A stretch of DNA of 23,180 nucleotides from a virus. The number at the start of each line of letters is the position of its first letter. The first letter of the stretch is position 1. A model generated the notes under the pieces. The model was given only the letters and a program-made list of their open reading frames with translations. It had not been told where the DNA came from and searched no databases. The stretch covers positions 1 to 23,180 of IMG/VR virus record IMGVR_UViG_3300031243_000013, one strand, 5' to 3'. Below are positions 3-15,555 of the stretch, piece after piece. The position numbers and the translations under genes were made by a program.

Positions 3-452
3 TCATTGTTGTTGTCTCCCTATACCGACAATGGTCCTGTCTAAAAGAGGCAATACATCGCTTTGAACAACCATATCTCTTTCATTTATAAAGAATTCCG
101 TATTAGAACCATAAACTAGCGAAGTATTAAGACCTGAGGCTGTTTTACGAGCAATCAAATCACCTTCTCTTACGTCCTCTAAGTTTTCTATTTTTTGTAG
201 GCCCAACTGAACAATAAATCTATCCATAGCTGGTTGCAGGGATCTAGTCTTTGTTCCTTTCATCATCTCTAATACAAAATGTTTGTTACTAAAAAAGGTT
301 TGCCTTGTCCACTTGGGTTGTTGATAGCTATGGTCTACTAACTGTTTATAAACTAGGACTAACGCCCAACAATCGTTGTGGCCTATAATGATGTTCCCTG
401 TTTTTTTTAACCGGGCTTTCATTTCTTCGATTGCCTCTAAAACTTCTTTCAT
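3..452 (-). CDS. NlpC/P60-like tail-associated protein, possibly inactive
   Basis: Complete 149-residue protein. Residues 24-33 (GHNDCWALVL) match the catalytic-cysteine segment of phage NlpC/P60 tail proteins (usually DCWGLV), with the presumed nucleophile at Cys28. A GDLIAR segment near residue 97 followed by a VYGSNTEFF strand fits the second half of that fold. In active members a histidine normally opens that strand (HVGIYLG-like); here the aligned residue appears to be Asn, so the cysteine may lack its partner. Such proteins cut cell-wall peptides or help assemble the tail tip. The start is supported by AGGAGA seven bases upstream. The gene stands apart from the fibre genes behind a promoter-like leader at 453-540. 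The family call is from a short motif and is tentative. Confidence 0.5.
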   Translation of the reverse strand: MKEVLEAIEEMKARLKKTGNIIIGHNDCWALVLVYKQLVDHSYQQPKWTRQTFFSNKHFVLEMMKGTKTRSLQPAMDRFIVQLGLQKIENLEDVREGDLIARKTASGLNTSLVYGSNTEFFINERDMVVQSDVLPLLDRTIVGIGRQQQ

Positions 453-497
453 ACTCTTCTCCTAGTAAGTGAGGGAGGACCCTAAGGTTTCCCCCTC

Positions 498-513
498 TCT
501 TTAACGTCACCTA
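498..513 (-). promoter_or_regulatory. Conserved leader box shared with the 11 kb repeat array
   Basis: On the minus strand this reads TAGGTGACGTTAAAGA. The same 16 bases occur at 11020-11035, 11290-11305 and 11397-11412, always outside genes and always followed by a G-run/C-run segment able to pair. Here the box lies about 45 bases upstream of the NlpC/P60-like start and follows CATAAT, which resembles a -10 element. It may be a transcription start region or a leader element bound by a phage factor. The rest of the 453-681 gap holds a 16-base A tract on the minus strand (549-564) and a small GGACA/TGTCC hairpin at about 645-657. No clear terminator is seen. Confidence 0.5.
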
Positions 514-681
514 ATTATGTGATAAAAAACAAACCCTTAGTTACTCCCTTTTTTTTTTTTTTTTCACTTTGAAGCTTAAGACTTGCTCCAAGACTTGTGA
601 GTAAGTCAATTGGGCTTCCTTTAAAGAGCCGCTAAATGGACGGCCCCGGACAGTGTGTCCTGATCTTGGTTTGTCGTGTTG

Positions 682-4018: not shown

Positions 4019-4426
4019 TCATACATACGCCCCCACATCCACCTCAACCTCAACCTCAACCTCAACCTGCGTCAGCCCCATTGCGGCCAACGTTGCCAAC
4101 GCATCGTCTCCGGCACAGGCGGTCAGTTTGTCAGGCGCTACCTCAACAGCCTCTAGCGAGAACACCAGCGCCGCTTGTGCGAGCCGTGCCGCATCCATGT
4201 CTATAATGTTGTCAGTGTCCCATGAGGGGCGCTGTAGGCCGCTCTGTGCTGTTGTGGTGAATGCGTCAGACACGATCAAGCTTGCGCAGGCGTAAAGGTT
4301 GCCCCCCGCGTCCTGCCAGTTCAGCGCCACGTAGGTTTCTGCATCAGACGGACCGTAGCCCAGCACCATGGCTAGTTGGTTTGCATCATCCCGCAGCGCC
4401 TCGGGGCAAGCGATTGTTAGTCTCAT
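4019..4426 (-). CDS. Small virion-module protein with a paralogous copy downstream
   Basis: A 135-residue protein starting MRLTIACPEALRDDANQLAM. The start at 4426 is supported by AGGAGG six bases upstream and a one-base TGATG overlap with the adhesin stop. The first half has GYGPSDAETYVALNWQDAGG and Cys-containing segments. The second half is Ala/Leu/Asp-rich, ending in a VEVEVEVEVDVG run encoded by a six-base repeat (about 4041-4067). Similar short proteins sit behind tail genes in Rhodobacterales prophages as far as I recall, function unknown. The first 50 residues are duplicated at 3857-4018. Coupling to the adhesin suggests a chaperone or a minor fibre part, by inference only. Confidence 0.65.
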   Translation of the reverse strand: MRLTIACPEALRDDANQLAMVLGYGPSDAETYVALNWQDAGGNLYACASLIVSDAFTTTAQSGLQRPSWDTDNIIDMDAARLAQAALVFSLEAVEVAPDKLTACAGDDALATLAAMGLTQVEVEVEVEVDVGAYV

Positions 4427-6666
4427 CAGTAGCCTCCTGTTACTGCTACGGTCCATCCGCGTGACCGTAGCGTGTCGATTGCTGCCTCACCAGCAGCGGA
4501 CGGTGCCGATCCGCCCGACTGATCGAACACACGTGTTCCTGCCGCAATACCGGATGCAACAAGCGACACTAGGATGTTGTCGATGCTGGTTTGCGTCAGT
4601 GCGGTGTTGTTAAATGCGCTGGAAAAGTCCCCGCCTTTTATATTGTCGAAGGCATTAGCTGGGAAGCTGGTCAGGCTGGTGCAGTCGCGCCACGCTAACG
4701 CAAAGCTAGTCCCCGAAGACGTGTCGATTAGGGGGAAACTGGTGAGGCTTGAGCAACGCAACCACGCTATCGCAAAGATATTCCCCGAAGACGTGTCAAT
4801 AAGAGGGAAACTGGTGAGGCTGGTGCAGTCCTGCCACGCTCGCCCAAAGCCAGTCCCAGAAGATGTGTCGATGAGCGGGAAACTCGTTAGGCTGGAGCAG
4901 TCGCGCCACGCTCCCCGAAAGTTAGTCCCCGAAGATGTGTCGATGAGCGGGAAACTGGTGAGGCTGGTGCAGTCCTGCCAAGCAAAAGAGAAATTAGTCC
5001 CTGCTGACGTGTCGATCAGAGGGAAGCTGGTGATTTCCGACCAATCTCTCCAGTAAGACTCAAAGTCGGTCACAGCCCCATAGCTGGCCGTTGCACCTTC
5101 CCCTACAAAGTAAGCCTCCGTCGCAGCAGCATCCCCCGCACTCAAAGCCCCGTTGCGGATTAACTGCCCCACGAGTGCGGTGCCGGGGAAATACTGCCCG
5201 TCCCTGCCGCCAATCTCATACGGACCAGCAGGAATGTTCACGCCGTAGCTTGCTGTGCCTTGGTCCGTGCCGAGAACCATTGTGCCAGTAAACCCGCCCG
5301 TTGGTACTGTCACGGACAGGCGGTCATCCACCTTGTCCAGCGTGGCGCGGGCGGGACCAGTCTGGTATGTCGGACGCGCCGCAGCCGTGGCCTGCGTGGC
5401 GTGGTTGCCGTTGCCTGATTTGTCCAGCATCAGCCCAACAGGTTGTCCCGCCGTTGTGACGGGCGTGGTGCCTGCGCTATCTTGGAACAGCGTGGACAGG
5501 TCGGATGGACCGTACCATGCACCTGCCTCGCTTCCCGTGAACACGTCAGCAGGGGTGAACACGCCGTCCTGCACCGTCACGCTCACGCTGTCCTGCGCGT
5601 CGGGTGACACGCCGTTGCTTGCTGTCTCCGAGTACTCCAGAACTTCACCGACAGACGCTTCCTCCGGTATAGTATAGTCGAGACCAGAAAGGTTCGCCGT
5701 AACGTCAACGCCATCAAGCGTAAGCGTAGGTGTCAAAGTAGGTGCAGGCGACCCGGAGTAGATGCCTTCAACGATTGTCACTGTGCTACCCTGTGCCGGA
5801 TCGCCGGTGATCTGCGGGGCGGAGGTGATCGTCGGCGCGAATGCCTTGAGACCTGCCTGTCCCCAGTTTAAGAGGTCTGTAAATTCAGACGCTGTCAGAC
5901 CGCGACTGATCTCCATTCCTCGCGCTATTTCTACCTTGGCAAAAGTATCTTCGCTAAACACACCTTTGTTGCCAAACAATTGGCTAACTCCTGTTTGCCA
6001 GTCCGGATAGAAACTGACACCTGTTTCCGAGGCAACCAGAGTTCCGTCGATCCAGAGTTTAAGAGTGCCGCTCGGTATGTCGCCCTCTACGATGATCACC
6101 ATGTCAAGCGGCGGATCATATGTCGGACTGGGTGCATCGAGAACATCTGTACTGGTGTTGTCAATCTGGAACCGGACAGGGGAAAACGAACCTTGCGGCG
6201 CATAGATAATCCTTAGTCCGTCATTAAGATCATGGGCAGTCCAGACAGGGTTGGTGTTTCCGTTTGTGTCCAGCGACCTGATTGCAAAACATGCGGTGAA
6301 AACATCCTTGCCTGTGAAGTCTCGGGTCACGCTCGTCAGTTTATCACTGATACCGTCCGAAAGTATCGTTCGACGGTTACCCACAATCTGCAGCCTCGGA
6401 CGGTCGGCGAGTACCTCCGTGCTGTGATCCACCCCGTTCGTGCTTCCGCTGTTATCTTTCCAAAGAGCCACGGGATCGTCATGGGCCGTCGCCGGAATTG
6501 TCCCGGCATCATCTTGCCAAAGACTCGACGTAGCGTAGGCATCCACGACAAAGCCCTGATCGTTTGATGTATAGAGGGTCTGCGGGAACACAAGCACGCC
6601 GGATCGACCACTTCGGCTATAGAAAACGGGAGTAGAAGTCATGTTAAGTGCTGTCGTTAGTCTCAT
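4426..6666 (-). CDS. Large phage adhesin: LamG-like, Ig-like and BspA-type repeats
   Basis: A 746-residue modular surface protein. Residues about 30-265 look like a concanavalin/LamG-type lectin domain (SDGISDKLTSVTRDFTGKDV, then GTLKLWIDGTLVAS). Residues 275-368 are an Ig- or cadherin-like module (APTITSAPQITGDPAQGSTV). Residues 380-540 hold WYGPSDLSTLFQDSAGTTPV and DKSGNGNHATQ, a second segment of the kind preceding bacterial surface lectins. Residues about 545-667 are five 24-residue repeats of the DUF285/BspA type (SFPLIDTSSGTNF..AW.DC.SLT). The C-terminus is a small cap. A role in binding host glycans or surface proteins is very likely. AAAGG sits about eight bases before the ATG. It follows the spike-base-like gene and is strongly GC-rich. 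Confidence 0.8.
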   Translation of the reverse strand: MRLTTALNMTSTPVFYSRSGRSGVLVFPQTLYTSNDQGFVVDAYATSSLWQDDAGTIPATAHDDPVALWKDNSGSTNGVDHSTEVLADRPRLQIVGNRRTILSDGISDKLTSVTRDFTGKDVFTACFAIRSLDTNGNTNPVWTAHDLNDGLRIIYAPQGSFSPVRFQIDNTSTDVLDAPSPTYDPPLDMVIIVEGDIPSGTLKLWIDGTLVASETGVSFYPDWQTGVSQLFGNKGVFSEDTFAKVEIARGMEISRGLTASEFTDLLNWGQAGLKAFAPTITSAPQITGDPAQGSTVTIVEGIYSGSPAPTLTPTLTLDGVDVTANLSGLDYTIPEEASVGEVLEYSETASNGVSPDAQDSVSVTVQDGVFTPADVFTGSEAGAWYGPSDLSTLFQDSAGTTPVTTAGQPVGLMLDKSGNGNHATQATAAARPTYQTGPARATLDKVDDRLSVTVPTGGFTGTMVLGTDQGTASYGVNIPAGPYEIGGRDGQYFPGTALVGQLIRNGALSAGDAAATEAYFVGEGATASYGAVTDFESYWRDWSEITSFPLIDTSAGTNFSFAWQDCTSLTSFPLIDTSSGTNFRGAWRDCSSLTSFPLIDTSSGTGFGRAWQDCTSLTSFPLIDTSSGNIFAIAWLRCSSLTSFPLIDTSSGTSFALAWRDCTSLTSFPANAFDNIKGGDFSSAFNNTALTQTSIDNILVSLVASGIAAGTRVFDQSGGSAPSAAGEAAIDTLRSRGWTVAVTGGY
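4665..5030 (-). repeat. Five 72-bp coding repeats of BspA/DUF285 type
   Basis: Five in-frame units of 72 bp; the block encoding DTS recurs at 4721, 4793, 4865, 4937 and 5009. Each gives a 24-residue unit with conserved FPLIDTSSG, AW, C and SLTS. Differences cluster at the two residues after NF and around W, the positions expected on one face of the solenoid. Confidence 0.85.
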
Positions 6667-10011: not shown

Positions 10012-10542
10012 TTATTCAGGTAAATAAAAAGGACCGACCTCTTTAGAGTAATCATCGAGAGATATGCTAAAGAAGGTTGTAGACTTCACAACAAAGTTTC
10101 TAATGCGTTCATCATAGCAAAGATGGTCTGTTACAGCAGTTAGAGTGCCTTTCTTTAATGAAAAGGTATCCTCTCCACCACTGATGACATATAGCCTAAA
10201 CTCCTGTGGTCCGGGTGGTCTATTACCCTCGTTTTCATTGGCTTGCCAATCTAACTCACTAGTCTCTCCTCTAACCGAGTGATAGATCTCTAGAGAAAGA
10301 AAAGAACAAGCCCTCTTGATAAAAGACACATCAACAATGAAACTCTTTTCTTTTACCCCGAAATGAGGGTTATCTAGCCTTACCTTCGAATAAGGCTCAC
10401 TTATCCTGTAGGGAAGGTTGTAGTAGTTATAAGAGCTGTAGAGAGCACTAGTTACAGCAATACTAAAAATCAAAAATACCAGTCTTATAAACCAAGTTTT
10501 CAATGTAGTATTATATTTATATTTATATTCATATTTGGTCAT
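10012..10542 (-). CDS. Single-pass membrane protein of unknown function
   Basis: A 176-residue protein from ATG 10542, four bases inside the previous gene (ATGA). The N-terminus is MTKYEYKYKYNTTLKTWFIR, followed by one hydrophobic segment (LVFLIFSIAVTSALY, about residues 21-36). The remaining 140 residues are polar with mixed strand and helix character. The short basic N-terminus suggests N-in topology with the C-terminal domain outside the cytoplasmic membrane. The YEYKYKY stretch comes from a six-base repeat. Pairing with a coiled-coil membrane gene recalls lysis or envelope modules, but no lysis motif is seen. Confidence 0.65.
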   Translation of the reverse strand: MTKYEYKYKYNTTLKTWFIRLVFLIFSIAVTSALYSSYNYYNLPYRISEPYSKVRLDNPHFGVKEKSFIVDVSFIKRACSFLSLEIYHSVRGETSELDWQANENEGNRPPGPQEFRLYVISGGEDTFSLKKGTLTAVTDHLCYDERIRNFVVKSTTFFSISLDDYSKEVGPFYLPE

Positions 10543-10832
10543 TGTCCTATAAGTCCTCCTCTGGAGACCCAAGTCCAGACAGAAGCTATAAATGCCCCGC
10601 CAAGGATCCAGAAAAATCTGTTCCAACCTGTTCTCATCCTATCATCATTCTCTTTAATAGCATAATTAGTCTGTGCTAAGAGTTCTGTAAGAGTTTTGAT
10701 CTGGGACTTCATAGTTGTTTCAGTTATTTCCATTTCTCTAACTTTTAGTTCAGTTAGTTCTATTTTTCTTTTTTGTTCCTCTACTGCTCTACATAAAGCT
10801 CTTATTTCATAGCTTTGCTTTTCTTCATTCAT
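10539..10832 (-). CDS. Coiled-coil protein with C-terminal membrane anchor (XhlA-like layout)
   Basis: A 97-residue protein. Residues 1-65 form a charged heptad-rich coiled coil (AVEEQKRKIELTELKVREME, then KSQIKTLTELLAQ). Residues about 70-90 are hydrophobic (FFWILGGAFIASVWTWV). This coil-then-anchor arrangement is that of XhlA-type holin partners and other small phage membrane proteins. GAGG lies nine bases before the ATG. It is the first gene after the tandem promoter-like array and couples directly to the 176-residue membrane protein. A holin-related role is possible but unproven. Confidence 0.65.
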   Translation of the reverse strand: MNEEKQSYEIRALCRAVEEQKRKIELTELKVREMEITETTMKSQIKTLTELLAQTNYAIKENDDRMRTGWNRFFWILGGAFIASVWTWVSRGGLIGQ

Positions 10833-10866
10833 CCTAGGATCCTCTCTTTAGATTTGAGGTCTAAGG

Positions 10867-10980
10867 CTCTGTTAAATTATTTATTAACAAATAATCAACA
10901 AACAACAGTCCTTTCGATTCAAGGGAAGACCCTTTAGGGTCTCTTCTTAGCATCTACTGACTCCGATCTCGTCAGTAAGG
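10867..10980 (-). repeat. Structured-RNA repeat, copy 1
   Basis: A 114-base unit nearly identical to 11139-11252. On the minus strand it carries an ACTGAC/GTCAGT stem-loop (about 10956-10976), an AGACCC-TAAA-GGGTCT stem-loop (about 10927-10942), and an AT-rich end containing GTTTGTTGATTATTTGTTAA. It lies in the leader of the 97-residue gene. Confidence 0.8.
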
Positions 10981-11060
10981 TTCCTAGTTAGAATCCTTTA
11001 GGGTTTCTTTTTACCCTCTTCTTTAACGTCACCTATTTTATTTCTTTACTTTCAATTGTT

Positions 11061-11090
11061 TATCTACTATAAAACTGTAAGTTTTGTTAA
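11061..11090 (-). promoter_or_regulatory. Promoter-like element, copy 1 (weak)
   Basis: On the minus strand TTAACA (11085-11090) is followed after 18 bases by TAGATA (11061-11066). This is a diverged form of the two elements at 11331 and 11438. The leader box 11020-11035 lies about 26 bases downstream. Confidence 0.4.
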
Positions 11091-11138
11091 AAAAGGTAAG
11101 ATCCTCTTAGGATCCCTAGTTAGGATCCTACCTTAAGT

Positions 11139-11252
11139 CTCTGTTAAAGTATTTATTAACAAATAATCAACAAACAACAATGCTTTCGATTCAAGGGAAG
11201 ACCCTTTAGGGTCTCTTCTTAGCCTCCACTGACTCCGATCTCGTCAGTAAGG
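11139..11252 (-). repeat. Structured-RNA repeat, copy 2
   Basis: Same length and stem-loops as copy 1, offset by 272 bases. The stems are unchanged; the few differences fall mainly in linkers and at the edge after the ACTGAC stem. Each copy is preceded, in the transcribed direction, by a CTAACTAG palindrome whose flanking arms differ between copies (GGATT/GAACC in one, GGTCC/GGGCC in the other). Confidence 0.8.
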
Positions 11253-11288
11253 CCCCTAGTTAGGACCCCTATTTAGGGGTTTTCCCCC

Positions 11289-11369
11289 TTCTTTAACGTC
11301 ACCTATTTTTTCTCTTTACTTTCAATTGTTTATCTACCTTAAACTATGACTTTTGTCAAAAAAGATAAG
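11289..11369 (-). repeat. 81-bp perfect direct repeat, copy A (promoter plus leader box)
   Basis: Identical over 81 bases to 11396-11476, offset 107. It contains a promoter-like pair and the leader box. A diverged third version spans about 11020-11100. Confidence 0.9.
11331..11359 (-). promoter_or_regulatory. Sigma70-like promoter, copy 2
   Basis: On the minus strand a perfect TTGACA (11354-11359) is followed after 17 bases by TAGATA (11331-11336). A TGAC-AAAA-GTCA inverted repeat overlaps the -35 hexamer and could be an operator. The -10 match is only partial. Confidence 0.5.
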
Positions 11370-11395
11370 ATCCTTTAGGGTTTCTTTTTACCCTC

Positions 11396-11476
11396 TTCTT
11401 TAACGTCACCTATTTTTTCTCTTTACTTTCAATTGTTTATCTACCTTAAACTATGACTTTTGTCAAAAAAGATAAG
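11396..11476 (-). repeat. 81-bp perfect direct repeat, copy B (promoter plus leader box)
   Basis: Second identical copy, lying directly downstream of the intrinsic terminator at 11477-11505, so transcription would restart here after the upstream operon ends. It is followed by a GGGT...ACCC pairing segment. Confidence 0.9.
11438..11466 (-). promoter_or_regulatory. Sigma70-like promoter, copy 3
   Basis: TTGACA (11461-11466), a 17-base spacer and TAGATA (11438-11443) on the minus strand, identical to copy 2 with the same inverted repeat over the -35 element. The first transcribed bases would lead into the leader box at 11397-11412. Confidence 0.5.
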
Positions 11477-11505
11477 AAAAAAAAAAAAAAGGGGGTATGA
11501 CCCCC
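11477..11505 (-). terminator. Strong intrinsic terminator
   Basis: On the minus strand GGGGGT-CAT-ACCCCC forms a perfect six-pair stem and is followed at once by 14 T. Just upstream, CCCCATCC and GGATGGGG (within 11506-11540) can form an eight-pair stem. It would end transcripts arriving from the 11739-12986 cluster. Confidence 0.85.
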
Positions 11506-11509
11506 ACCC

Positions 11510-11735
11510 CATCCCAATTAAGGGACAGGATGGGGGTTCATGAGTAAGGTCTCTTCATACCAGAGAGCTCCAGAGTGTACCCCTCTGGTGACTCCTCTAA
11601 GCTCTGGATACCCACCCTACTAGAAGAGTGAACCCATGTCTCTACGGTCTCCTTTGAGGCACTTTACCATAGTTGATCGGTAACTTCAGTAAGAGGGCCA
11701 CATACTAATGCTAGCCTCTTGTTCCTCATTGAAGA
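11510..11735 (-). ncRNA. Candidate structured non-coding RNA or 3' leader
   Basis: About 225 bases without a convincing gene, between the 70-residue membrane gene and the terminator. Two stem-loops are visible on the minus strand. At 11642-11672 CTATGGT pairs with ACCGTAG around an inner CTC/GAG. At 11560-11607 CCAGAG pairs with CTCTGG around a GGGTACA loop, enclosed by an outer AGAGC/GCTCT stem. The G/C-rich 11506-11540 segment and the terminator complete a transcript-like end. It could be a small RNA or a stable 3' end. A 21-codon ORF (11664-11729) is probably chance. Confidence 0.4.
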
Positions 11736-11738
11736 GCC

Positions 11739-11951
11739 TTATCTGCTCCTCAAAAAAATGCTCGTAGGATCGTACAAGGATCTGACGGTATCTAAGACAA
11801 TAGAGACAGATAGAACGATAAACACAACAGTTAGGACAAAATAGATGACTCTTTTACTATCCTTCTCGTATCCTTCGAAGAGCTTGTTCCCCGTTAAAAC
11901 CAAATAGGTACCTGCTAAGACAATTGCCAGATAGAAGATAGCAGTAAGCAT
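11739..11951 (-). CDS. Small two-helix membrane protein
   Basis: A 70-residue protein with two hydrophobic segments: residues about 2-21 (LTAIFYLAIVLAGTYLVL) and 34-54 (RVIYFVLTVVFIVLSVSIVL), joined by a charged loop (KLFEGYEKDSKR). The layout would place both ends on the same side of the membrane and is that of many small phage inner-membrane proteins, including holins and superinfection-exclusion proteins; nothing decides between them. AAGGA lies ten bases before the ATG. It is the last gene before the terminator at 11477-11505. Confidence 0.7.
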   Translation of the reverse strand: MLTAIFYLAIVLAGTYLVLTGNKLFEGYEKDSKRVIYFVLTVVFIVLSVSIVLDTVRSLYDPTSIFLRSR

Positions 11952-13453: not shown

Positions 13454-14125
13454 TTACTGTCGCTCGGCAGCGATTGCATTCAGAGCGGTGACAATTGCCA
13501 TGCTTTCACGATGTTTGTGGTGCTTAGGGTGGCCCCAATGGGCTTTCGCCTCGTCAGGCGTAAAGTCGCGGCACCCAGCGACAATCGATCCGTCCGATTG
13601 CAAGGTGAACATGTACCCATCTGATCGGGTTATGCTTGTAGGCGTAGACGTGTACACCCCGCGCTTGACCAGCGCATTGCCGGAGACCCGCGCATCGCCG
13701 TAGACAAGCGCATTGCCGTAGACCCGCGCACTGCCGGAGACCCACGCATCGCCGCGGACCCGCGCATCGCCGGAGACCAGCGCATTGCCGTAGACCAGCG
13801 CATCGCCGCGGACCCGCGCATTGCCGGAGACCCGCGCATCGCCGTAGACAAGCACATTGCCGTAGACCCGCGCACTGCCGGAGACCCACGCATCGCCGTA
13901 GACCCGCGCATTGCCGTAGACCAGCGCATTGTCGTGTACCAGCGCATCGCCGGAGACCAGCGCATTGCCGTAGACCAGCGCATTGCCGTAGACCAGCGCA
14001 TCTTCTCCAATGTACGCGCTATTATGTACGTTAGCCGTATCAGCCACCCACCCGTTGCCTTTAATATGCCTGTGCGCAGGAACGGGGCCGTTGCCGTCTC
14101 CGAAATTGTGAGTTTGCTCTTTCAT
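13454..14125 (-). CDS. Hexapeptide-repeat (left-handed beta-helix) phage protein
   Basis: A 223-residue protein. Residues about 31-155 are some 20 imperfect hexapeptides of the form [VL]-Y/S-G-[ND]-A-[RLW] (ALVYGNARVYGDAWVSGSAR), the sequence signature of a left-handed parallel beta-helix. Residues 157-195 (SITRSDGYMFTLQSDGSIVA, then GCRDFTPDEAKAHWG) form a C-terminal domain that accompanies such repeats in other phage proteins I recall. The helix lacks the catalytic loop and His expected of acyltransferases, so a structural or binding role is more likely. AAGGAG precedes the start, which overlaps a 25-residue gene by ATGA. The very GC-rich DNA points to acquisition. Confidence 0.75.
   Translation of the reverse strand: MKEQTHNFGDGNGPVPAHRHIKGNGWVADTANVHNSAYIGEDALVYGNALVYGNALVSGDALVHDNALVYGNARVYGDAWVSGSARVYGNVLVYGDARVSGNARVRGDALVYGNALVSGDARVRGDAWVSGSARVYGNALVYGDARVSGNALVKRGVYTSTPTSITRSDGYMFTLQSDGSIVAGCRDFTPDEAKAHWGHPKHHKHRESMAIVTALNAIAAERQ
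13660..14035 (-). repeat. Array of 18-bp in-frame coding repeats
   Basis: About 20 consecutive 18-bp units, each encoding one hexapeptide of the beta-helix protein. The units are near identical (GGCGATGCGCTGGTC-like) and adjacent without spacers. Such DNA can gain or lose coils by slippage without breaking the frame. Confidence 0.85.
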
Positions 14126-14232: not shown

Positions 14233-14613
14233 TTATTTCAGCCAAGGCTTGCCGCCGCTAAGGTCGGCACAGTTAACAAATATGCCCGTAAAATACGTCT
14301 CAGACCCGCTAGAAACGTCAATGGTAGGGAATGCGTTTTTCTCCGCCCACTCCTTTCCTTCATCCGTTTCCAAGAACGCGGCCTTCAGTTTGGCTTCCTC
14401 CGCTGCGCGCTTCTCTTCTTCTGCACGGTATTTTTCATCGGCGTCAATGGTGTCTTGGTGCATTGCGATATAAACGCCGCGGTCGTCCTCGTCCTCAGTA
14501 TCGTAAAGGAATGTGCCTGTTTTGTGGGTAACTCGGAGCGATCCGCGAATGTCTATCGTCAGACCTGCATCCTCAAAAAGGCGGACGACATCTGCTTGTG
14601 TTAGGTTTTTCAT
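14233..14613 (-). CDS. Charged hypothetical protein (MKNLTQADV family copy)
   Basis: A 126-residue protein starting MKNLTQADVVRLFEDAGLTI. AAGGA nine bases upstream supports ATG 14613 over the longer frame from 14685. The first 65 residues look like a small alpha/beta domain (RVTHKTGTFLYDTEDEDDRG). A long charged helix follows (DEKYRAEEEKRAAEEAKLKA), then FLETDEGKEWAEKNA. The first 27 coding bases are repeated exactly at the start of a broken gene at 15199, so this is probably the surviving version of a gene that once followed 15196 directly. Function unknown. Confidence 0.65.
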   Translation of the reverse strand: MKNLTQADVVRLFEDAGLTIDIRGSLRVTHKTGTFLYDTEDEDDRGVYIAMHQDTIDADEKYRAEEEKRAAEEAKLKAAFLETDEGKEWAEKNAFPTIDVSSGSETYFTGIFVNCADLSGGKPWLK

Positions 14614-14615
14614 TT
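14586..14615 (-). repeat. 30-bp perfect direct repeat, copy 1
   Basis: Thirty bases identical to 15172-15201, covering AAATG and the first nine codons of MKNLTQADV. The interval of 586 bases contains the VRR-NUC remnant and a 61-residue gene, as expected if a module was inserted or the site was duplicated during recombination. Confidence 0.9.
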
Positions 14616-14668
14616 GGTTGGTTCCTTTGGTTGATGTGTGGTCCCCGGCGCGTGGCCGGGGGTGGGGG

Positions 14669-14901: not shown

Positions 14902-15177
14902 TTACCCGTTAATACCGCACGAGTCAAGCAGTAATTTTGCAAAATCGTCGGCTGTGCAACAAAACCCACCGACACCGCCGAAGCCCCGAACGGATTGCAG
15001 GAAAGCGGCCAGGCGCAGGCCGCGTTTGTCGCCGGGCGTCAGACGCCAGCCGGGCTTTTTGGTTTCGACCGCCGGGAACACGCCAAGCGTTTTGCCAACG
15101 TGTGACGGCTGCACCAACACGGGCAACAGCCCGATCAGATCGGACGACTTCCAGCGCGCATTCAAGGCGGGCGACAT
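14902..15177 (-). pseudogene. Truncated VRR-NUC nuclease remnant
   Basis: The 91-codon frame reads LNARWKSSDLIGLLPVLVQP, then VGKTLGVFPAVETKKPGW and SVRGFGGVGGFCCTADDFAK. This is the C-terminal two thirds of a phage VRR-NUC endonuclease: SDLIG (Asp13), the E-x-K metal site (Glu38, Lys40) and the GG-x-x-G end. The N-terminal third of the domain is missing and the usual Gln after the Thr-Pro turn is replaced. The frame opens in DNA that belongs to MKNLTQADV in another frame, with no ribosome site. The start at 15199 instead reads into an unrelated frame. I read this as a broken import; whole VRR-NUC proteins act on branched DNA or recombination intermediates. Confidence 0.7.
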
Positions 15178-15201
15178 CTGCTTGTGTTAGGTTTTTCATT
15201 T
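15172..15201 (-). repeat. 30-bp perfect direct repeat, copy 2
   Basis: Second copy of the MKNLTQADV start region. Here the ATG (15199) overlaps the preceding stop by ATGA, the native arrangement. The frame it opens (to 14924) is a 91-codon Arg-rich sequence antagonistic to the VRR-NUC frame and is unlikely to be functional. Confidence 0.9.
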
Positions 15202-15555
15202 AGGTTTTCCTTTGCTATAATAGTATTCTTCTAGAGCATTTGCAATCTCACTAAAGGATTTACCTTTGTCATTCATTTCTGTAGCAATTCTTGATATTTT
15301 TGAGTCTTGGGTGAATTTCATTATGTGGTCATAGGTTATCTCGTGTCCTTCAAAAGTAAAACCACTTTTATTAAGACTCTCAACTTCCATAGGGCCGAGA
15401 TGAAACAAATCATTAAGTACACCAAGGCAGCAATAACCTGTCTTACCAAACTCTGAAACACCCATAAGTGTCCCTTGTATTTGCTGGTACTTACCACTGC
15501 GGAGTGCGGCCATCCATTGATTAAATTCCTTATCAGTTATTTTAGCAATTGTCAT
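15196..15555 (-). CDS. Conserved phage protein with ALRSGKY and YCCLGVL motifs
   Basis: A 119-residue protein. WMAALRSGKYQQ at 14-25, YCCLGVLNDL at 41-50, and MNDKGKSFSEIANALEE near the C-terminus match a protein widespread in tailed phages and prophages (W..ALRSG.Y.Q...L.....YCCLGVL..L ... LND.G.SF.EIA..I). Its biochemical role is not known. The paired cysteines in YCCLG are a fixed feature of the family. The ATG at 15555 lies within the preceding gene, and the stop overlaps the start of the duplicated MKNLTQADV segment. AT-rich, part of the native backbone. Confidence 0.75.
   Translation of the reverse strand: MTIAKITDKEFNQWMAALRSGKYQQIQGTLMGVSEFGKTGYCCLGVLNDLFHLGPMEVESLNKSGFTFEGHEITYDHIMKFTQDSKISRIATEMNDKGKSFSEIANALEEYYYSKGKPK

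Follow-up and report, generated by a model that had tools for sequence, protein, structure and literature searches.

A tandem island of SP6-like boxes as a candidate late promoter region in a phage related to DSS3_VP1 and DSS3_PM1

The IMG/VR virus record analysed here (23,180 bases, hereafter the window) carries its long ORFs on the minus strand and contains a tandem repeat array at 10862-11477. We propose, with a probability of about 0.87, that this array is a tandem phage-polymerase promoter island which opens a late operon behind a strong terminator. The proposal is built on the identity and recurrence of a 16-base leader box, TAGGTGACGTTAAAG, the strand on which it lies, a polymerase gene in contigs of the same species, and the hairpins and terminator-like sites of the region. 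The box is the informative element and resembles the promoters of phage SP6. A preliminary description of this DNA had offered a multi-promoter control region as one reading; this is supported, mainly through the phage-polymerase box, a reason which that description had not given.

Layout of the array and its genomic setting

The large terminase of the window is ~69-70% identical to those of DSS3_VP1 and DSS3_PM1 (hereafter VP1 and PM1), the nearest named phages, both roseophages, which are listed as Naomviridae, Noahvirus. A 61,150-base contig of the same species, G002, matches the whole window at 99.8%. Among the protein matches that keep the order of VP1 are the RNA polymerase, DNA polymerase, exonuclease, primase/helicase, terminase, endolysin and portal. 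Boxes were compared in four related genomes or contigs (G002, VP1, PM1 and G013); VP1 and PM1 are nearly one phage and the array boxes are duplicates, so the counts are not independent. No TerL relative was confirmed in the bacterial genome collection. A tRNA search of the window found none; in the same species, five tRNA matches cluster just downstream of the portal gene at 3137-3925 of L105. Cultured members of the family contain DNA with uracil instead of thymine, according to two reports (PMC13037479; PMC12697855). The dCMP-deaminase domain PF00383 is present in VP1 and PM1 and absent from the fragments G001, G002, G006 and G013; the window's species may make no uracil DNA or may carry the deaminase gene elsewhere.

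All elements of the array follow the direction of the phage's coding strand, here the minus strand. They are listed here in the direction of reading, followed by a fourth candidate promoter of the window.

11477..11539, minus strand: end of the upstream operon, marked by terminator-like hairpins and a T14 run (11485-11545 folds at -34.7 kcal/mol, z -4.1)
11477-11370, minus strand: copy A, promoter part and first hairpin only
11438..11466, minus strand: copy A TTGACA-N17-TAGATA, possible host -35/-10
11393..11415, minus strand: copy A putative SP6-like phage promoter, -17 to +6, predicted +1 the G at 11398
11377..11394, minus strand: copy A 5-pair hairpin, starting at about +5
About 11370-11089, minus strand: copy B, with promoter, full leader and terminator-like hairpin, and no gene
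11331..11359, minus strand: copy B TTGACA-N17-TAGATA
11286..11308, minus strand: copy B putative SP6-like phage promoter, predicted +1 at 11291
11275..11289, minus strand: copy B G-run/C-run hairpin, starting at about +3
11256..11263, minus strand: copy B CTAACTAG, on the loop side of a weak hairpin
11228..11248, minus strand: copy B invariant stem-loop ACTGACGAGATCGGAGTCAGT
11199..11214, minus strand: copy B AGACCC/GGGTCT stem-loop
11089..11134, minus strand: copy B end, 13-pair hairpin then T6, terminator-like (-21.6 kcal/mol, z -3.3)
About 11090-10833, minus strand: copy C, leading into the gene at 10832
11061..11090, minus strand: copy C TTAACA-N18-TAGATA
11016..11038, minus strand: copy C putative SP6-like phage promoter, predicted +1 at 11021
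11000..11017, minus strand: copy C 5-pair hairpin, starting at about +5
10956..10976, minus strand: copy C invariant stem-loop, with a Shine-Dalgarno-like GGAG partly in the loop
10861..10953, minus strand: copy C 30-codon mini-ORF that may encode a leader peptide, including the AGACCC stem-loop (10927-10942) and an A/T hairpin (10871-10899)
10539..10832, minus strand: gene of 97 aa next after the array, its ATG preceded at 7 nt by AGAGAGGA
494..516, minus strand: fourth putative SP6-like promoter of the window (19-nt box 499-517), before the ORF 452..3 and followed by a G-run hairpin

The tandem array is thus as first described, and it does begin directly after a strong terminator. Its three composite units are unequal: B and C are the fuller ones, and the ACTGAC and AGACCC stem-loops said to mark every unit stand in these two but not in A. 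The palindrome element CTAACTAG occurs three times. The repeat between A and B, given earlier as a perfect 81 bp, is exact but spans 83 bp (11288-11370 = 11395-11477), and between B and C a stretch of 135 nt is shared at 93% identity, in which three runs, of 41, 30 and 25 nt, are exact. The product of the first gene after the array has weak similarity to DSS3VP1_00007, which stands at the corresponding place (pairwise E 8e-6). Between 10830 and 11560, seven terminator-like sites were listed, several of them overlapping, against a mean of 0.9 in shuffles; a G+C-rich hairpin followed by a T-run, as in an intrinsic terminator, is found at 11505-11491 and 11134-11089. Ahead of the upstream terminator, 11556-11662 is 88% like 43023-43129 of G002, in the region of the primase/helicase ORF.

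Could the repeats have arisen during assembly? Box spacings of 107 and 270 recur in all five array-spanning contigs (the window and IMG/VR 3300031329, 3300031704, 3300031684 and 3300031339), which makes an artefact unlikely; three of the other four carry an array letter-identical to that of the window. In a sixth contig (3300028366) copy C is the sole copy. The 270-base unit was found through its 21-mer in 12 viral stretches. Related copies thus exist elsewhere in a restricted sense, with boxes in other phages but the 270-base unit only in this species or very near it. Before the portal gene, contig 3300028367 (L117, 7038-7270) has one leader unit and the other eight loci (six contigs) have two; the cassette may vary in copy number through recombination between repeats, or assembly collapse could account for the single unit.

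The box, its recurrence and the phage polymerases

In the window, the 19-nt box is found four times with up to three mismatches, three times in the array and once at 499-517, against a mean of 0.00 in 100 shuffles. For genome counts it was written as the pattern TAGGNNNCG[TC]TAAAG, which has 7 sites in G002, 14 each in VP1 and PM1 and 4 in G013. Every one of these 39 lies on the coding strand; the expected mean was 0.0 in 10 first-order simulations of each genome. The exact 16-mer was present in 79 stretches, from which 25 contigs were followed up together with VP1 and PM1, and those contigs that had a single site but matched no polymerase were left out as perhaps due to chance. Allowing two mismatches, the 16-nt form was found in 27 of 27 records, 25 of which had been selected for carrying it, and a backward-read control pattern gave no site in any of the 27. 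By a crude gene call, the boxes are intergenic in 7/7 cases in G002, 6/14 in VP1, 7/14 in PM1 and 3/4 in G013, the remainder lying inside ORFs (VP1 8/14, PM1 7/14, G013 1/4).

Each of the four genomes has tandem boxes ahead of its portal gene: one exact and two variant in G002, two by pattern and one with a changed last base in VP1, three in PM1 and two in G013. VP1 and PM1 share with the window the same box on the same strand, in tandem before portal and before the gene at the corresponding place. They differ in that most of their boxes have a varied middle (TAGGTTACG, TAGGGTGCG), and they have neither a TTGACA-like pair nor the leader stem-loop; the latter is also absent from G013 (searches with up to four mismatches).

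Recurrence fades in distant relatives. Among 76 loci, TAGGNNNCGTTAAAG is present in 2 and ACGTTAAAGA in 7, with 9/9 copies of the latter on the coding strand, and most loci are without a box. In four of the seven (L142, L149, L157 and L193) the form is ATACCTGACGTTAAAGAA, in which the start half is kept and the recognition half changed. The bare 8-mer CGTTAAAG is found 69 times on the other strand against 18 on the coding strand, probably because of a shared coding word, ACTTTAACG, present in 54 loci. A de novo repeat search of the relatives' loci of at least 11 kb gave a box-like motif in L149 only.

How close is the box to known phage promoters? An SP6 matrix was built from 13 promoter-like sites collected from the SP6 record with the known consensus, all on one strand; at the collection threshold the opposite strand of SP6 yields 1. 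Annotated starts supplied 17 T7 promoters for comparison, and annotation 13 K11 promoters. When both strands of G002 are scored with the SP6 matrix, its seven boxes rank 1, 2, 3, 3, 3, 6 and 16 of 122,256 positions; the first two lie outside the window, the array boxes tie third, the box at window position 513 is sixth and the portal box sixteenth. The boxes of VP1 rank less well (1 to 1950 of 150,130). The 23-nt consensus AAaTAGGTGACGTTAAAGAaGaG agrees with SP6 at 16/23 positions, a value reached by 2 of 20,000 shuffles, with K11 at 12 and with T7 at 10. A profile over 26 sites gives a consensus of ~23 bp (-17 to +6), dispersed on the coding strand as in promoters of the T7/SP6 type; at positions which the pattern leaves free, 24 of the 26 have A at +2, and +3 to +8 are mostly purines.

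The span of 23 nt, the purine start, the placing on the gene strand and the dispersal before genes are shared foremost with SP6 promoters, then with those of K11 and T7, and the recognition half TAGGTGAC is as in SP6. T7 also has annotated tandem promoters, phi1.1A and phi1.1B, 75 bp apart. Positions +1, -1, -3 and -4 are described as conserved in phage promoters in PMC13029058, and the box has G, A, A and T there. The same source gives CACTATAG, -7 to +1, as a core closely common to T7, T3 and SP6; the core of the box is CGTTAAAG, the same in 5/8 positions, which rules out an SP6 promoter proper. The genome that carries it is also Naomvirid, not Autographivirid. The box would thus represent a diverged class, working like an SP6 promoter without being one.

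A candidate polymerase is encoded by these phages. The VP1 enzyme (PF00940, 732 aa, E 8.5e-83) matches T7 RNA polymerase in the PDB at E 1.8e-58, and PM1 also encodes a single-subunit polymerase. The gene lies outside the 23,180-base window, in other contigs of the species: G002 has a VP1-type polymerase gene interrupted by a group I intron, and its two exons are 63-64% identical to the VP1 gene product. In G013 a 317-residue part is found at the contig end. The catalytic residues of T7 (D537, K631, Y639, H811 and D812) have their equivalents in the VP1 and G002 enzymes. At T7 position 748, which we take to be a promoter-reading residue, one alignment gives N in T7 and K or R in K11, SP6, VP1 and G002, in line with GG at -12/-11 in the promoters of these four. 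One alignment also places a gap in the VP1 enzyme, the shorter one at 732 aa, at the A/T-rich recognition loop of T7. As a single query against viral contigs, the VP1 polymerase found one relative, the record of VP1 itself.

On this prediction each box would serve as a promoter for an SP6-like, single-subunit RNA polymerase that the phage itself encodes, and the array would head a late operon extending through the large terminase. Promoter use, start site, strength, termination and leader function are likewise predicted. Transcription would begin on the minus strand at the G of TTAAAG, giving RNAs with the 5' start GAAGAGGG or GAAGGGGG, in which a hairpin could form within 3-5 nt of the 5' end. 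Transcripts of copies B and C would continue into a longer leader; that of C would reach the gene at 10832, and that of B would probably stop in part at its own terminator-like hairpin. The upstream terminator would insulate the island from the preceding operon. Two further units stand before the portal gene.

The leader and competing readings

Some late mRNAs of T7 have a hairpin near the 5' end, in the phi10 leader at the very 5' end. The array leader is alike in this respect and differs in its further hairpins and mini-ORF. A hairpin starts within 8 nt of +1 at 5/7 boxes in G002, 7/14 in VP1, 6/14 in PM1, 3/4 in G013 and 0/1 in L118, compared with 6-10% of random places and 11-20% of G-rich places. 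By energy these hairpins are only slightly more stable than dinucleotide shuffles (mean z -0.95, 18/42 below -1, sites not independent).

Further into the leader, the block ACCTTACTGACGAGATCGGAGTCAGT is nearly unchanged across copies B and C and the two G002 portal units, and from CCTTACTGAC onward the leader is invariant in six aligned variants, loop included. This invariance points to sequence conservation or recent exchange, not to pairing alone. Selection on RNA structure, suggested earlier from the changing palindrome arms, is unsupported, since 0/19 pairs changed on both sides in the six variants, a small sample. Pairing is largely kept in homologues (87% of cells), but the AGACCC helix, which in the portal copies is disrupted in part, pairs in 67%.

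The strongest rival makes the TTGACA/TAGATA pair, read by the host sigma-70 polymerase, the main working part of the island, the box being no more than a conserved leader; we regard this as possible but less than even. The pair had been assigned to every unit; A and B do have an exact TTGACA at 17-nt spacing, but C has TTAACA at 18. The -35 and the spacing (16-18 nt) are as expected for sigma-70. TAGACA-N18-TAGATA stands before the full box at portal, and a loose pair is found within 80 nt before 4/7 G002 boxes (the three array copies and the portal copy). Phage N4 offers a precedent, its late genes being transcribed by the host sigma-70 polymerase according to PMC4496689. Against this, TAGATA matches 3/6 of TATAAT and lacks the final T of the A2 and T6 looked for in a -10 element, and a sigma-70 scan did not list the pair; the sole site it listed in the array is TAAACA-N16-TAAAAT (11062-11035, copy C), where chance alone would give 1.3. 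A and B count as a single duplication, and even the loose pair is absent before the boxes of VP1 (0/14), PM1 (0/14) and G013 (0/4), where the box itself is kept. The pair may be a host promoter, and under the phage-polymerase reading it may also admit the host enzyme before each box.

What, then, is the role of copy B, which has a promoter and a full leader and no gene? Under a second rival, A and B are the source of short trans-acting RNAs (~200 nt from B) terminated by the hairpin at 11134-11089, and C is an mRNA leader. The hairpin of -21.6 kcal/mol and its T-run favor this, as does the stem-loop that is invariant, loop included, in the six variants. The transcript of B may stop there because of these 13 pairs and the T-run, and the repeated small RNA first suggested for the whole array thus survives as a possibility for copy B. 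As an account of the array it is unlikely: covariation is absent, the scanned portal leader region has no terminator-like site, and T7-type polymerases pass many intrinsic terminators. Rfam has no family for the window at gathering score, the best sub-threshold match being RT-16 (33.6 bits against 50, E 0.004). The sub-threshold Rfam matches in 10830-11750, 18 in number (E up to 5), were treated as chance.

The mini-ORF MLRRDPKGSSLESKGLLFVDYLLINNLTEP might instead encode a leader peptide whose translation governs the downstream gene. GGAG stands 7 nt before its ATG, and the frame runs for 30 codons in copy C and for 26 in the second portal unit, where it reads MLRRDPKRTSLESKALLFVDSLNKYF; variants in L070, L117 and L013 include several changes that are synonymous or conservative by reading. 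The frame is closed in copy B, which has AGG for ATG, and in the first G002 portal unit, and the changes are too few for a test. We judge a translated attenuator to be rather improbable. Least credible is a replication origin primed from tandem phage promoters and an A/T-rich stretch, as at the T7 primary origin with phi1.1A and phi1.1B: when the window is taken in 1000-base steps, G+C reaches its minimum (34%) and local GC skew its strongest value (-0.22) at the array, but cumulative skew does not turn there and similar tandem promoters also precede portal.

Implications and further observations

Control of late genes by tandem promoters for a phage polymerase is known in kind; the promoter variant and the repeated leader cassette appear new. 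A literature search on the letters of the box gave no match, the family's original description lying outside the search, and the words 'promoter' and 'RNA polymerase' are absent by term search from PMC13037479 and PMC12697855. From the boxes a promoter code can be predicted for this family of phages, in which the cultured members have uracil-DNA, making middle and late transcription testable, and they suggest a polymerase/promoter pair distinct from those of T7, T3 and SP6. A duplicated leader cassette shared in this manner would be a way for a phage to spread a control block among operons.

A second polymerase-like gene is also seen. A 1463-aa protein at 21242-25633 of L006 (DSS3_VP1), 13118-17524 of L112 and 16919-12251 of L114 is a head-polymerase fusion, with the minor head domain PF04233 at residues 140-243 (phrog_241 E 2.4e-53) and a single-subunit RNA polymerase domain (phrog_414 E 4.9e-25; PF00940 E 2.4e-6). 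T7-like motifs A, B (K and Y eight apart) and C can be recognized by eye, and the protein may be a virion polymerase tied to the head. Very tentatively, and against the odds as we see them, a programme of three polymerases could be imagined. The head-fused polymerase would act first and the SP6-like polymerase would then use the dispersed boxes, with late islands adding host promoters. The repeated cassette would be the shared leader of two late operons, its invariant ribosome-site stem-loop and tiny peptide serving to control both together.

In the window's species, each of the two polymerase genes is interrupted by a group I intron (RF00028, 53 and 103 bits), at 13455-13639 of L107 and 13299-13528 of L114, and the first insert (L107) holds an ORF that resembles a homing endonuclease by eye. 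Elsewhere in the window, a direct repeat of ~52 bp, 92% identical, links 14578-14629 and 15164-15214, and two ORFs, at 13454-14125 and 4426-6666, are built from repeats of 18 bp (ALVYGNA-like) and 72 bp (SFPLIDTSSGT-like).
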